Origin: Poseidonibacter lekithochrous
Lineage (GTDB): Bacteria > Campylobacterota > Campylobacteria > Campylobacterales > Arcobacteraceae
Direction of reading: 5' to 3'
DNA length: 64,000 nucleotides
Assembly (NCBI RefSeq): GCF_018861145.1
Contig: NZ_JAHKQT010000032.1
Coordinates: 62,001-126,000, forward strand
Both the position numbers and the translations under genes were made by a program. Shown piece after piece: positions 22,991 to 47,570 of this stretch. Position 1 is the stretch's first letter; every line of letters starts with the position of its first letter. Below the pieces are notes generated by a model. The model was not told the DNA's origin, searched no databases, and worked only from the letters and a program-made list of their open reading frames with translations.

Positions 22991-23983
22991 TTAATAATTA
23001 CATCTTTTATCAAATTCTTCTTTCGTTAATTCAACTTTATACGAATTAACTATACCTTTTTCTTGTAATTTCTTATATAATTCATTTCTAAGTGTATTGT
23101 CTTCAAATGGTCCATAATATATCTCTATTCTATTTAACTCATCTCTACAAAGCTTTATATTGCTACTAATAGCAGTAATTCTATCTAAATAAGATTTATA
23201 TAGTTCACCTTTTATTTTTGCAACATTAATTAAAGGAATAAATTTATTTTCTTCTTTTACAATTACTTCTAGTTCTTTAGTGTTTTTTTGATCTTCTTGA
23301 AGAACTATTTCTTTTTCTATTACTTCTTTCTTTATTAACTCTTCTTTTTGCATTTCTAGTAAATTTTTACTATCTATCATTTCATTTCTTAATACAATAG
23401 CTTCATTCTTCAGTAATTCTAGTTCTTTTTTTTGTTTTTCTAATGCAATTTTCTTATTTTCTAATTCTTCTTTCTCTTTAGATATTTTTTCTTCTTCCAA
23501 AACTAAAGCTTCTTTCTTTTTCTTTTCTTCTTCTAGTTTTATTTTTTTCTCTTCTTCTAGTTTTTCTCTTCTATTATTTTCTTCTTCTGCAATTATATTT
23601 TTATTTGTAAGCAATAAGAGCTGTTTATTCAACTTCTTTGAGTTGATATCACTTATATTAAAACTATTTTCTTTTATTATGGGGTTTTGTTGTTCTATTA
23701 TTTTTGTATTCTTTGGTTCTTCTTTTTCTTCAAAAAAACCCATAAAAAATAGTATAGCTCCCACTATTAAAACTAATAATAAAAATCCTACTAAGCCAAA
23801 TAATATTTTATTTAAAAATGGAACTTTTTTTTGTTTTTTTATTTCTTTATCTTCCGATTGATTATGATCATGTATTTTTTGAGCTTTATCATTAGACTCA
23901 TCTATTTTAACAGAATTATTAGTTTCCTCTTCTATATTAAGAGTTTCTTCTTTTATTTCTTCAATAGTGTCATCTTGCATCAT
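22991..23983 (-). CDS. membrane-anchored coiled-coil protein with a SPOR-like C-terminus
   Basis: A 330-residue protein I do not recognise as a named family. It has an acidic cytoplasmic N-terminus (residues 1-50), one membrane helix (about 56-80), a long Glu/Lys-rich coiled coil (about 115-250) and a C-terminal domain with IEIYYGPFEDNTLRNELYKKL, written in parts: IEIYYGPF then EDNTLRNELYKKL. The GPF followed by a helix and strand recalls SPOR peptidoglycan-binding domains. Inside-out topology with periplasmic C-terminus is inferred. Third gene of the minus-strand flgG operon, so an envelope task linked to the flagellum is possible. Confidence 0.6.
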   Translation of the reverse strand: MMQDDTIEEIKEETLNIEEETNNSVKIDESNDKAQKIHDHNQSEDKEIKKQKKVPFLNKILFGLVGFLLLVLIVGAILFFMGFFEEKEEPKNTKIIEQQNPIIKENSFNISDINSKKLNKQLLLLTNKNIIAEEENNRREKLEEEKKIKLEEEKKKKEALVLEEEKISKEKEELENKKIALEKQKKELELLKNEAIVLRNEMIDSKNLLEMQKEELIKKEVIEKEIVLQEDQKNTKELEVIVKEENKFIPLINVAKIKGELYKSYLDRITAISSNIKLCRDELNRIEIYYGPFEDNTLRNELYKKLQEKGIVNSYKVELTKEEFDKRCNY

Positions 23984-25373: not shown

Positions 25374-25745
25374 ATGAAAATTCTTATAGTTGATGACAGT
25401 TCTACAATGAGAAGAATTATTGGGAATGTAGTTCAACAATTAGGTTTTAAAAAAGAAGATTTTGATGAAGCTGAAGATGGTGTAAAAGCTTGGAAACTTC
25501 TTGGTGAATCTCAATATGATGTAATCTTAACAGATTGGAATATGCCTAATATGAATGGTTTAGAACTAGTTAAAAAGACTAGAGGTGAGGGGTCTCACAT
25601 GAAAACACCAATTATTATGATTACTACTGAGGGTGGTAAAGGAGAAGTTATCACAGCTTTAAAAGCTGGTGTTAATAACTATATTGTTAAGCCTTTTAAT
25701 GCAGAAATTTTAAAAGAAAAGCTTGATGGAGTATTAAAAAAATAA
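25374..25745 (+). CDS. cheY: CheY, chemotaxis response regulator
   Basis: Single-domain receiver of 123 residues that carries the phosphoryl signal from CheA to the motor switch. The acidic pocket (VDDSS), the phosphorylation site in LTDWNMPNMNGLE, ITTEGG (Thr) and VKPF (Lys) are all intact. It is followed 14 bases later by a CheZ-like gene and then rod genes, fitting a role at the switch. AAAGGGTTAAGTA precedes the ATG. Confidence 0.94.
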   Translation: MKILIVDDSSTMRRIIGNVVQQLGFKKEDFDEAEDGVKAWKLLGESQYDVILTDWNMPNMNGLELVKKTRGEGSHMKTPIIMITTEGGKGEVITALKAGVNNYIVKPFNAEILKEKLDGVLKK

Positions 25746-25759
25746 TATAAGGTTTTAGT

Positions 25760-26806
25760 ATGAGTATGAGTCAAGAAGAAATCGAAGCTTTAATGAACGG
25801 TTTAGAAATAGTTGATGATGAAGATTCTATTGTTGAAGAAGAAACACCAATAGTCTTAGAAGATGCACCTGTTGTAAATACTGATGAAATTGAAGAATTG
25901 ATTTCTCAAAATGAAAAAACAAGTACAAAAGAAACGCAAGAAGTATCTGAATTAACTGAAACTTCAACTAATGAAATTGTAAATAATACTAATAGTAACT
26001 CAGGAACAATGGATAATGATGATATTGATGCCTTACTTAAAGATTTAGAATTAGTTGAAAGTAAAGAAGAAAAACCTGAGGATGATTTATTTGATGACCT
26101 TACTAGTGCTAATGTTGAACCTTTAGCTACTAGTGATTTGACATCACAAAATTTTGATGATGTTTCCGCAGATGAAGAAGGTATTGTTGAATCTACTACT
26201 GCAAAAACTTTAGACAAAAATCAAGATGATAAAGAAGAAATAGGTAAAGACTGGGCAGATACAAAAATAAATGAAGGAATGTTCCCTTTTCCTGCAGATA
26301 ATGATACAAAAGTGGTAAATCAATTAAGTCAAGTAGCAAATGATTCTGAAGAAAAAGTATCTCAAATTTTTGATGTTTTAAGTTTAACTTTAGATAATAA
26401 TAATGATGTAAGATCTAAACTAGCTGATTTTGATAAATTTTTAGCTTCAGACTTAGAATTATTAACTTCATTAAGTACTAAATTCCCAAATATTGAAATA
26501 TTTAATGCTCAGAAAAAAGAAGCGGAGAGAATATCTAATAATATAAAAGAGATTTCAGATATAGTAAATGCAGAAGATATGAAAATTTTTGAAGCAATGG
26601 AATTAATGCAATTTAATGATATTAATAGACAAAAGATAGAAAGAGTTATGTCGGTTATTAGAAAATTATCTCTTTATTTAAATAATTTATTTGAAGATGA
26701 TGGAACAAGTCAAGAAATTGCAGTTGCTAAACATATTCATGGGGATAGAAACCATGATTTAATTGGCGAAGATTTAGATAAACTTATAGATGAATTTTCA
26801 AAATAA
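25760..26806 (+). CDS. cheZ: remote CheZ-type CheY-P phosphatase with FliM-like N-terminal peptides
   Basis: A 348-residue protein with a disordered acidic N-terminal half and a helical C-terminal half. Three N-terminal peptides resemble the CheY-binding tail of FliM: SQEEIEALM (4-12), TDEIEELI (41-48) and DDIDALL (87-93). In the helical part, FNDINRQKI (285-293) places D287 and Q291 with the same spacing as the catalytic Asp and Gln of CheZ. The C-terminus, GEDLDKLIDEF, resembles the CheZ tail helix that holds CheY-P. Direct adjacency to cheY supports signal termination. Remote CheZ proteins are known in Helicobacter and Campylobacter. Identification is by motif, not overall similarity. Confidence 0.72.
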   Translation: MSMSQEEIEALMNGLEIVDDEDSIVEEETPIVLEDAPVVNTDEIEELISQNEKTSTKETQEVSELTETSTNEIVNNTNSNSGTMDNDDIDALLKDLELVESKEEKPEDDLFDDLTSANVEPLATSDLTSQNFDDVSADEEGIVESTTAKTLDKNQDDKEEIGKDWADTKINEGMFPFPADNDTKVVNQLSQVANDSEEKVSQIFDVLSLTLDNNNDVRSKLADFDKFLASDLELLTSLSTKFPNIEIFNAQKKEAERISNNIKEISDIVNAEDMKIFEAMELMQFNDINRQKIERVMSVIRKLSLYLNNLFEDDGTSQEIAVAKHIHGDRNHDLIGEDLDKLIDEFSK

Positions 26807-38886: not shown

Positions 38887-39762
38887 TTGGCATCAGATTT
38901 ATCTAACATATTCAAAGATGAATTATCTAATACATTAGAGCAACTTTTATCAAAAAATTCACAAGTTGAAGCAGTAAGTGAACTTAATGCTCAATTATTT
39001 AATTCTACACAAGTAATCGAAGGTTCAGTTAGATTCGAATTTAAAGATATTACTTCTACTTGGAATTTTTATATTCCAACAATAAGTGCTACAAAGTTTG
39101 AATACTTTATGCTTGGTGGAATGGGTGATTTAAAAGAACATATAGATGATGAAATTACTGATGCTGTAAATGAAATAATATCTAATATTTGTGGAAGTTT
39201 TTGTACCTCTGTTAATGCACAAGGCTTTTTTGATGTATCTTCAATAAAATCTGAAGTTAAAAGTGCAACTATCTTAGAAGGTGGAGTTTTATCTTCAAAA
39301 AAGAATGCTTATGAATTTACTATTTCACTTGATGAAGATAAACTACCCGTTATCATCTCTTTTGATGAAATAATTTTACCTTACTTTTCTGCAATTACAG
39401 GGAAAAATGCTGAGCCTATTTCAAATATTTCTTCCATATTAAGTAATGAAAAAGAAATTAAAGAAGATACTTCTGTAAATACAACAAATATTCAAACTCC
39501 AAAAAATTTGGAACTTTTATATAATATAAAGTTAAAGTTAAGTGTGAGATTAGGAACAAAAGTAGTATTATTAAAAGATATTTTAAGTTGGGATATTGGT
39601 GAAATAATTGAACTTGAACAAATGGTTAATGAACCCTTAGAAATTTTAGTTAATGGTATTAAAATAGGTGAAGGTGAAGCAGTTATTGTTGAAGGAAAAT
39701 TTGGCCTTAAAATTAAAAGTATTGGTAATGATAATATAAAATTAAACCAAATAGGATTATAG
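38887..39762 (+). CDS. fliY: FliY, C-ring protein with CheC-like and SpoA domains
   Basis: A 291-residue switch-complex protein. The N-terminal part (about residues 1-170) is CheC-like with D92-x3-E96 followed by S99-N100 and G103, so the usual catalytic Asn at E+3 is Ser. A linker (about 180-205) leads to a C-terminal SpoA domain (LLYNIKLKLSVRLGTKVVLLKDI, core LKLSVRLGTKVVLLKD). TTG start. FliY together with FliN is the Campylobacterota pattern. A CheC-type phosphatase activity looks doubtful here, and the neighbouring cheY-cheZ pair could supply that function. Confidence 0.85.
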   Translation: MASDLSNIFKDELSNTLEQLLSKNSQVEAVSELNAQLFNSTQVIEGSVRFEFKDITSTWNFYIPTISATKFEYFMLGGMGDLKEHIDDEITDAVNEIISNICGSFCTSVNAQGFFDVSSIKSEVKSATILEGGVLSSKKNAYEFTISLDEDKLPVIISFDEIILPYFSAITGKNAEPISNISSILSNEKEIKEDTSVNTTNIQTPKNLELLYNIKLKLSVRLGTKVVLLKDILSWDIGEIIELEQMVNEPLEILVNGIKIGEGEAVIVEGKFGLKIKSIGNDNIKLNQIGL

Positions 39763-45515: not shown

Positions 45516-47570
45516 ATGACAAAACAATTAGATATCTTATCAAGTGAAACAAAAAATGTTACAACAAGCTCTACAAGTACAAATAAGGAAGTAAAACAAG
45601 AAGCTTCATTATTCGATAAGTTATTAGGTGGGGCTGTTAAAAATGCATCAAACGAAAAAGCTGATTCATCATTATCTTCGGTAAGTACAAATAAAGAAGA
45701 AGCTAAAAATCCTATAACTACAGAAAATTCATCAAAAGTAAATGATGATAAAGATTCAATACCTCAAAAAAGTTCATCTTTACTTGATAGATTAGTTCTT
45801 GAAGCAAAAAAAGATGTAGTAAAAAATACTCAAACATCTCAAGTATCTCAAATTACACAACAAACAACATCTGAATCAAATATGGAATCATTAGAATCTT
45901 CAGAAATAAATATAAAGACTGAATTAAAAACGAATGAAACAGTAAAGATAGTTAATAATAAAGAAGAGATAAAAAATAGTGATGTAGTAAAAAAAGAAGA
46001 AGTAAAAAATATAGAGACTCCTAAAATAAATCAACAGACGCAACAGAGTGGTTCAATACTAACAACACAAACAACAATAGATTCAGATGATACAAATATA
46101 AAGACTGAATTAAAAACAAATGAAACAGTAAAGATAGTTGATAATAAAGAAGAGATAAAAAATAGTGATGTAGTAAAAAAAGAAGAAGTAAAAAATCTAG
46201 AGATTCCTAAGATAAATCAACAGACACAACAGACTACTTCAATACCAACAACACAAACATTACAATCCCAAGAAATTCTTGAAACAGTAAAAGTTTCACA
46301 AGTAAATATAGAACTAGATGAAACAAATATAAAGACTGAATTAAAAACAAATGAAACATCTCAAATCATGCAACAATCTAAAACACCTGAACTATTAGAA
46401 TCAACATTAACTACTTCAACAACACAAGTTCAGGAAAGTACAGATGAGATTAAATCATCACAAATAAGTATAGATTCTGAAGAAATAAATATAAAACCAG
46501 AATCAAAAACAAATGAAAATAATAATACAAAATTAGGAAAAGATTTAGCTTCATTAAATAAGGAAAGTATAGTAAATGAAAAAATAAATATTTCTAAAGA
46601 TGAAATAGAGTCTTTGCTAACAAAACAAAAAGAAGAACCAAAATCTTTAATGGATAGTTTAATTGATAAAACTAAAAAACTAAAAAATGAAACTTCATTA
46701 AATGAAGAAGAATCAAAAATATTAAAAAATACAAATACATCTAATAATTCAAAAGAAGTAATTAGTAATATTTACTTAAGTTCTCAAAAAAACAATATAA
46801 ATAATAATGCATTATCAAATAAAAATGAAGCTATTAATTCAGTAAAAAATGCAACAAGTACTGAAGAAGTTAAAGTTAATGCTAAAAAATTAGATTTAAA
46901 TTTAAAAGATATTAGTTTAGAAACTAAAACGGCAGAAGTGAATAAGGATACAGTAAATTTAATTGATAGAAAGAATAGTCTTGATAAAATTATTTTAAAT
47001 AATAATGCAAGACATAATGAAATTACAAACTTAATTACAAAATCAGTTGAAGCAAGTAAAGCAATAATGGAAGATAGTGTAGATAGTGAAAATGAAGTTT
47101 CATTAACGGTAAATCCGGTATTAGCACAAAGTATTCAAACAAAGATTATAGGTGCTAGACAACAAATGTCAAGTATGATGTCAGATATTGCTAGACAAAT
47201 GTATGAAAACTATAAACCTCCCGTAACAGCATTTAGAATAAATTTAACTCCTGGAACTTTAGGAAATATAGCAATTGTTATGAAAAGTGATAAAGATAGT
47301 GGAATAAATATAAGTTTAAATATCTCTAACACTGCAACTCTTGATGCTTTTGTAGATAGTCAAAATAGTTTAAAAAATGCTTTAAATAAAACATTTGAAG
47401 ATGGAACTGAATTTAATTTAGATTTTAGTTCAAATGATCAAAATAGTAATAATTCAGATGATAAAGAAGATAGGAATCAAGCATTTGATAATTCGTCTAA
47501 TACACAAAGTATCTTAGAATCAAGAGAGAAAAACTTAGAATCAGAAGATAGAAATTTAGATTATATGTAA
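45516..47570 (+). CDS. fliK: FliK-like hook-length control protein with internal repeats
   Basis: A 684-residue protein, longer than most FliK. The N-terminal two thirds are Ser/Thr/Asn/Lys/Glu-rich and disordered, with a tandem duplication of 62 residues (about 133-194 and 195-256) built on IKTELKTNETVKIV and two further partial copies. The C-terminal domain (about 540-640) has FRINLTPGTLGNIAIVMKSD and LNISNTATLDAFVDSQ, like the FliK specificity-switch domain. It acts as a secreted ruler and signals FlhB, encoded two genes downstream. Overlaps fliR by one base. Confidence 0.82.
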   Translation: MTKQLDILSSETKNVTTSSTSTNKEVKQEASLFDKLLGGAVKNASNEKADSSLSSVSTNKEEAKNPITTENSSKVNDDKDSIPQKSSSLLDRLVLEAKKDVVKNTQTSQVSQITQQTTSESNMESLESSEINIKTELKTNETVKIVNNKEEIKNSDVVKKEEVKNIETPKINQQTQQSGSILTTQTTIDSDDTNIKTELKTNETVKIVDNKEEIKNSDVVKKEEVKNLEIPKINQQTQQTTSIPTTQTLQSQEILETVKVSQVNIELDETNIKTELKTNETSQIMQQSKTPELLESTLTTSTTQVQESTDEIKSSQISIDSEEINIKPESKTNENNNTKLGKDLASLNKESIVNEKINISKDEIESLLTKQKEEPKSLMDSLIDKTKKLKNETSLNEEESKILKNTNTSNNSKEVISNIYLSSQKNNINNNALSNKNEAINSVKNATSTEEVKVNAKKLDLNLKDISLETKTAEVNKDTVNLIDRKNSLDKIILNNNARHNEITNLITKSVEASKAIMEDSVDSENEVSLTVNPVLAQSIQTKIIGARQQMSSMMSDIARQMYENYKPPVTAFRINLTPGTLGNIAIVMKSDKDSGINISLNISNTATLDAFVDSQNSLKNALNKTFEDGTEFNLDFSSNDQNSNNSDDKEDRNQAFDNSSNTQSILESREKNLESEDRNLDYM
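45911..46510 (+). repeat. tandem duplication within fliK
   Basis: A unit starting TATAAAGACTGAATTAAAAA occurs at 45911 and again at 46097, 186 bases (62 codons) apart, and the two units are nearly identical over about 165 bases. The start of the unit recurs at 46328 (231 bases on, with an insertion) and degenerately near 46490. All spacings are multiples of three, so the reading frame is kept. Confidence 0.85.

Follow-up and report, generated by a model that had tools for sequence, protein, structure and literature searches.

A CheZ phosphatase of the Arcobacteraceae with a FliM-like tail that may dock CheY-P beside its active site

The 64,000-nucleotide stretch of DNA analyzed here (the window) carries on its plus strand, at 25760..26806, an open reading frame for a 348-residue protein that is well supported by sequence comparison as the CheZ orthologue of Campylobacterota. 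The tail of this protein contains several copies of a peptide resembling the N-terminus of FliM, one of which is conserved throughout the phylum, and this suggests that CheZ catches CheY-P by imitating the motor. We think it probable that the disordered tail mimics FliM and would dock the phosphorylated form of the neighboring CheY (CheYz-P) beside the active site. The genome is a 3.0 Mb Poseidonibacter-like genome of the Arcobacteraceae (Campylobacterota), with Poseidonibacter ostreae among the named relatives (67% identity).

The assignment of the gene as cheZ is based on the reading frame, a match to the NF041271 (Phos_CheZ) profile and the family orthologues, which were found in 92 of 101 Arcobacteraceae genomes. 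NF041271 aligns to residues 136-346 of the product with an E-value of 2e-30 and 105.9 bits; the profile's cut-off of 350 bits is not reached by the product, and is reached in just 23 of 298 genomes of the phylum, while matches to the profile are present in 249 of the 298. The Pfam CheZ model (PF04344) gives the product a sub-threshold 11.4 bits against a cut-off of 30.7, and a Pfam CheZ search of its own genome gave no match, which we attribute to the remoteness of the Campylobacterota CheZ family. The CheZ of Helicobacter pylori is a known phosphatase, and yet none of the 121 Campylobacterota genomes tested reaches the PF04344 cut-off; the shortfall reflects a limit of the two models, whose cut-offs are not a defining trait of CheZ.

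The original prediction assigned CheZ active-site spacing to D287 and Q291, and the comparisons made here agree with it. The site (D287...Q291, DINRQ; 26618..26632, plus strand) was located by conservation and by profile alignment with DLTGQ of E. coli CheZ, and both residues are invariant in an alignment of 37 Arcobacteraceae sequences. When a profile of 32 Campylobacterota CheZ cores was compared by hhalign with eight beta/gamma-proteobacterial CheZ sequences, MQFNDINRQKIERVM aligned to AQDFQDLTGQVIKRMM, pairing D287/Q291 with D143/Q147 at a probability of 94.7% and an E-value of 6e-8 in this one comparison. The D-x3-Q site falls in the second helix of the CheZ hairpin and can be aligned with that of E. 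coli; together with the NF041271 match, this bears out the CheZ-like identity that had been proposed. The hairpin itself (residues 181-312; 26300..26695, plus strand) was defined by AlphaFold and by the profile match to E. coli-type CheZ; the single-chain model shows two long helices, 181-241 and 246-312, at high confidence (pLDDT mostly >90), with a short helix predicted ahead of the core (residues 160-171; 26237..26272, plus strand; AlphaFold model). A Foldseek search of the PDB gave no significant match to the CheZ model and returned generic helical hairpins only, CheZ being absent among the 50 matches listed, and a profile search reaches 1kmi only at an E-value of 0.8. As Foldseek did not retrieve CheZ, the fold comparison lends no independent support to the assignment. 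The alignments nevertheless support D287 and Q291 on the hairpin as the residues that would perform the dephosphorylation chemistry, as in other CheZ proteins.

The tail begins with the FliM-like peptide SQEEIEALMNG (residues 4-14; 25769..25801, plus strand), identified by a FliM matrix, orthologue comparison and an AlphaFold helix. The scoring matrix was built from FliM tails, comprising Campylobacterota tails and the tail of E. coli FliM. On this matrix SQEEIEALM (residues 4-12) scores 20.5 bits, and the CheY-binding C-terminal peptide of E. coli CheZ, SQDQVDDLL, which served as a positive control, scores 16.2 bits. The FliM tail reads SQ[DE]EIDALL and is likewise N-terminal and helical; FliM, however, is a rotor protein, and the copy in CheZ has Met in place of the final Leu, with further copies after it. 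All 105 full-length CheZ orthologues of the phylum open with the peptide, as MSMSQEEIEALMNG in Arcobacteraceae and as MTQEELDALM in other families, and it is conserved in many genera, including those where cheY is not adjacent. Within Arcobacteraceae it shows synonymous codon variation with hardly any change of amino acid, which indicates that selection acts on the peptide at the protein level. The eight beta/gamma-proteobacterial CheZ sequences examined lack it and have the C-terminal peptide only. Across the 3.0-Mb genome a strict FliM-like 9-mer occurs four times, and FliM, which starts MAEFLSQDEIDALL, and CheZ are the sole proteins that start with it. The two other occurrences, which we take to be coincidental, lie inside unrelated enzymes, one a tyrosine recombinase and the other a UDP-sugar dehydrogenase.

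Two further FliM-like peptides lie within the linker, both identified by the FliM matrix, conservation and an AlphaFold helix: peptide A, NTDEIEELISQ (residues 40-50; 25877..25909, plus strand), and peptide B, DNDDIDALLKDL (residues 85-96; 26012..26047, plus strand). The 9-mer of peptide B, DNDDIDALL (residues 85-93), scores 14.6 bits, and that of peptide A, NTDEIEELI (residues 40-48), only 8.8 bits. Shuffles of residues 13-175 gave a mean of 0.039 motifs against the 2 seen (P ~5e-4), for a pattern that was chosen post hoc. A tight regular expression under-counts internal sites, and the site counts given here come from the matrix instead. In the linkers of 56 Arcobacteraceae orthologues, which are related and so are not independent trials, the matrix finds 110 internal sites scoring 8 bits or more where shuffles predict 15.9, an approximately sevenfold excess; 53 of the proteins have such sites (14.1 expected), and at 11 bits 38 sites remain against 2.2 expected. 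Reversed linkers are a harsher control, since the motif is nearly palindromic, and carry 39 sites against the 110 read forward, so that the shuffles overstate an excess that is nonetheless real. At 14 bits the counts are 17 forward and 3 reversed, and with one orthologue per genus at least one internal site is present in 15 of 17 forward and 6 of 17 reversed linkers. The number of internal sites per Arcobacteraceae CheZ ranges from 0 to 5, whereas 49 orthologues from other families of the phylum contain a single site in total, with 1.2 expected by chance. Near relatives are 0.95 identical to the window protein across peptide A and 0.73 across peptide B, compared with 0.31-0.61 across the neighboring linker. 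Of 35 Arcobacteraceae members, 30 retain the hydrophobic core of peptide A and 34 that of peptide B; these counts may be inflated, since aligners tend to pile motif-like segments on one another where a linker aligns poorly. On these alignments the two peptides are islands of conservation within a fast-evolving linker, and internal FliM-like peptides are, as far as sequence tells, an Arcobacteraceae feature. In several Arcobacteraceae CheZ linkers another segment recurs, of the approximate form IDDILAGIDGITD(D/N)EP; we found it at loci L135, L140, L147, L155, L156, L158, L161 (twice) and L162.

The protein ends with a CheY-binding-type peptide of the ordinary CheZ kind (residues 336-347; 26765..26800, plus strand; pattern and AlphaFold helix), in which residues 336-346 read GEDLDKLIDEF; the predicted CheZ-like C-terminus is thereby confirmed in sequence. 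Its 9-mer IGEDLDKLI scores 5.8 bits on the FliM matrix, and the C-terminal pattern is matched in 104 of 105 orthologues, with a variant in the remaining one. AlphaFold places short helices at 5-12, 41-57, 86-97 and 336-347, on the four peptides and amid low-confidence linker; such isolated helices in the model are the behavior expected of peptides that would fold on a partner. The original prediction of three FliM-like peptides stands in so far as all three are present in the expected places, but they are not equal in standing, and we prefer to describe one ancient peptide, two of Arcobacteraceae type and the ordinary C-terminal CheZ peptide, making four. The prediction is borne out in part, the binding of CheY-P by these peptides and the gathering of several such molecules being putative. 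Conservation of the N-terminal peptides among orthologues had been set in advance as one of the tests of that prediction, and the outcome was favorable for the first across the phylum and for the other two within the family.

The likely substrate and docking partner of CheZ is encoded directly 5' of it by cheY (CheYz; 25374..25745, plus strand). cheY lies directly upstream of cheZ in 42 of 42 named Arcobacteraceae loci, one copy (L129) being matched in part only. The locus runs from flgG, on the opposite strand, through cheY and cheZ to a flagellar rod/hook-type gene and more flagellar genes, including ones that read by sequence as fliF and fliG. The alpha4-beta5-alpha5 face of CheY-P is the face used by FliM and by the C-terminal peptide of CheZ. 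Among the residues with which E. coli CheY contacts FliM, CheYz keeps K92, Y106, V108, K109, F111 and K119 and differs at A90, K91 and T112; FliM-type helices (20.5, 14.6 and 8.8 bits) thus coexist with a CheY that retains most residues of the matching face. Arcobacter genomes have five CheY proteins each, among which CheYz has independently been proposed as the motor- or FliM-binding one; the same study proposed that the cheYZ pair is what remains of the ancestral F3 system (PMC9321776). On the minus strand, window positions 22991-23983 encode a 330-residue protein without a confident family match, in which one transmembrane stretch is likely and a long, charged region has coiled-coil character.

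We propose that CheZ would use D287 and Q291 to dephosphorylate CheYz-P, the form of CheY that serves the flagellar motor, and that the first peptide, joined in Arcobacteraceae by one or more internal ones, may bind the alpha4-beta5-alpha5 face as a short helix. Docking in this manner would raise the local concentration of CheYz-P at the active site and keep the bound molecules off FliM meanwhile. The tail might also act as a specificity filter, directing the phosphatase to the motor-visible receiver among several CheY proteins. An extended form of the proposal, which we put forward tentatively and rate as somewhat unlikely, is that in Arcobacteraceae a multivalent tail built upon the phylum-wide N-terminal mimic concentrates CheYz-P or keeps it sequestered, and makes the phosphatase response both steep and receiver-specific. 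Each chain would then offer four putative docking peptides, or eight per dimer if the protein dimerizes like E. coli CheZ.

Chance resemblance to FliM in an acidic, disordered tail containing Ile and Leu is highly improbable as an explanation: the brevity of the internal motif and the abundance of D and E in the linker speak for it, but the first peptide recurs in every orthologue with synonymous variation at 20.5 bits, and no protein of the genome other than FliM shares it as a beginning. The internal peptides call for more caution. It is plausible, if on the doubtful side, that only the N- and C-terminal peptides dock CheY and that the internal ones, as amphipathic stretches in the acidic linker, are kept for another reason, such as length, solubility, helix bundling or a different partner. 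Their absence outside Arcobacteraceae, their varying number, the weak score of peptide A and the presence in several species of the IDDILAGIDGITD repeat in the same linker all fit this reading, against which stand the excess over both shuffled and reversed linkers and a conservation well above that of the surrounding linker.

The partner of the N-terminal peptide could also differ from the one we favor. We regard as unlikely, though worth weighing, that it docks receivers other than CheY (CheV, the CheA receiver, or the receiver of a partner such as ChePep), placing or regulating CheZ rather than speeding dephosphorylation. Localization of H. pylori CheZ depends on ChePep (PMC11237671; PMC5447363), and H. 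pylori CheZ lacking its N-terminal region is reported to keep both its phosphatase function and its role in biofilms (PMC11237671, which cites earlier work for the phosphatase function). The peptide is moreover kept in many genera of the phylum beyond those with an adjacent cheY. Against this, it is near-identical to the peptide of FliM, whose known partner is CheY, and in Arcobacteraceae cheZ adjoins cheY. Given the H. pylori result, an essential role of the peptide in catalysis is unlikely, and tuning of capture, specificity or placement is the more likely function. FliM mimicry with docking of CheYz-P remains our preferred reading.

Compared with known systems, the orthologous H. pylori CheZ (HP0170-type, NF041271) shares with this protein the D..Q active site, the C-terminal peptide and a FliM-like N-terminus, there MTQEELDALM, but its tail is short (median linker ~64 residues outside Arcobacteraceae) and free of internal FliM-like peptides, and its gene adjoins trhP, not cheY (PMC9321776). 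In E. coli and other beta/gamma-proteobacteria, CheZ (PF04344) shares the catalytic residues and the C-terminal CheY-binding peptide, and has no FliM-like N-terminal peptide or tail in the eight sequences examined. FliY of Bacillus subtilis is a CheY-P phosphatase with an N-terminal CheY-binding motif (PMC8809382; PMC340952), and so a precedent for the combination proposed here; unlike CheZ, it is a motor component of unrelated fold (CheC/FliM-like plus FliN-like). We rejected a FliY identity for the product, which has no CheC-like or SpoA (FliN-like) domain; the SpoA proteins of the genome are encoded elsewhere. A FliY-like protein of the same genome (291 residues, SpoA domain; window ~39513-39722, L121:874-1749) differs from B. 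subtilis FliY in having no N-terminal motif for CheY binding.

The function of the N-terminal region in Campylobacterota CheZ proteins, H. pylori CheZ included, has been called unknown (PMC11237671), and the literature searched contained no description of a CheZ with a FliM-like tail, although the peptide may have been noticed earlier. Its presence throughout the phylum gives a directly testable idea, that of a phosphatase competing with the motor while wearing the motor's own docking peptide, and the Arcobacteraceae proteins, with their 0 to 5 internal peptides, form a natural series on whether multivalency tunes signal termination.

Related sequences occur in other contexts. A 684-residue protein at window positions 45516-47570 has an isolated FliM-like 9-mer, SKDEIESLL, at residue 360 (15.8 bits). 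The genome also encodes a second CheZ, a 117-residue mini-CheZ, HQDLYRQKIERV (L125:1378-1731, minus strand; G000 contig C43), whose gene adjoins a chemoreceptor gene and which has a C-terminal EDELEALI but no N-terminal peptide. In other genera, the longer proteins that correspond to it (L058-L062, 152-163 residues) still start with MTQEELDALM or MTQEELDAMM.
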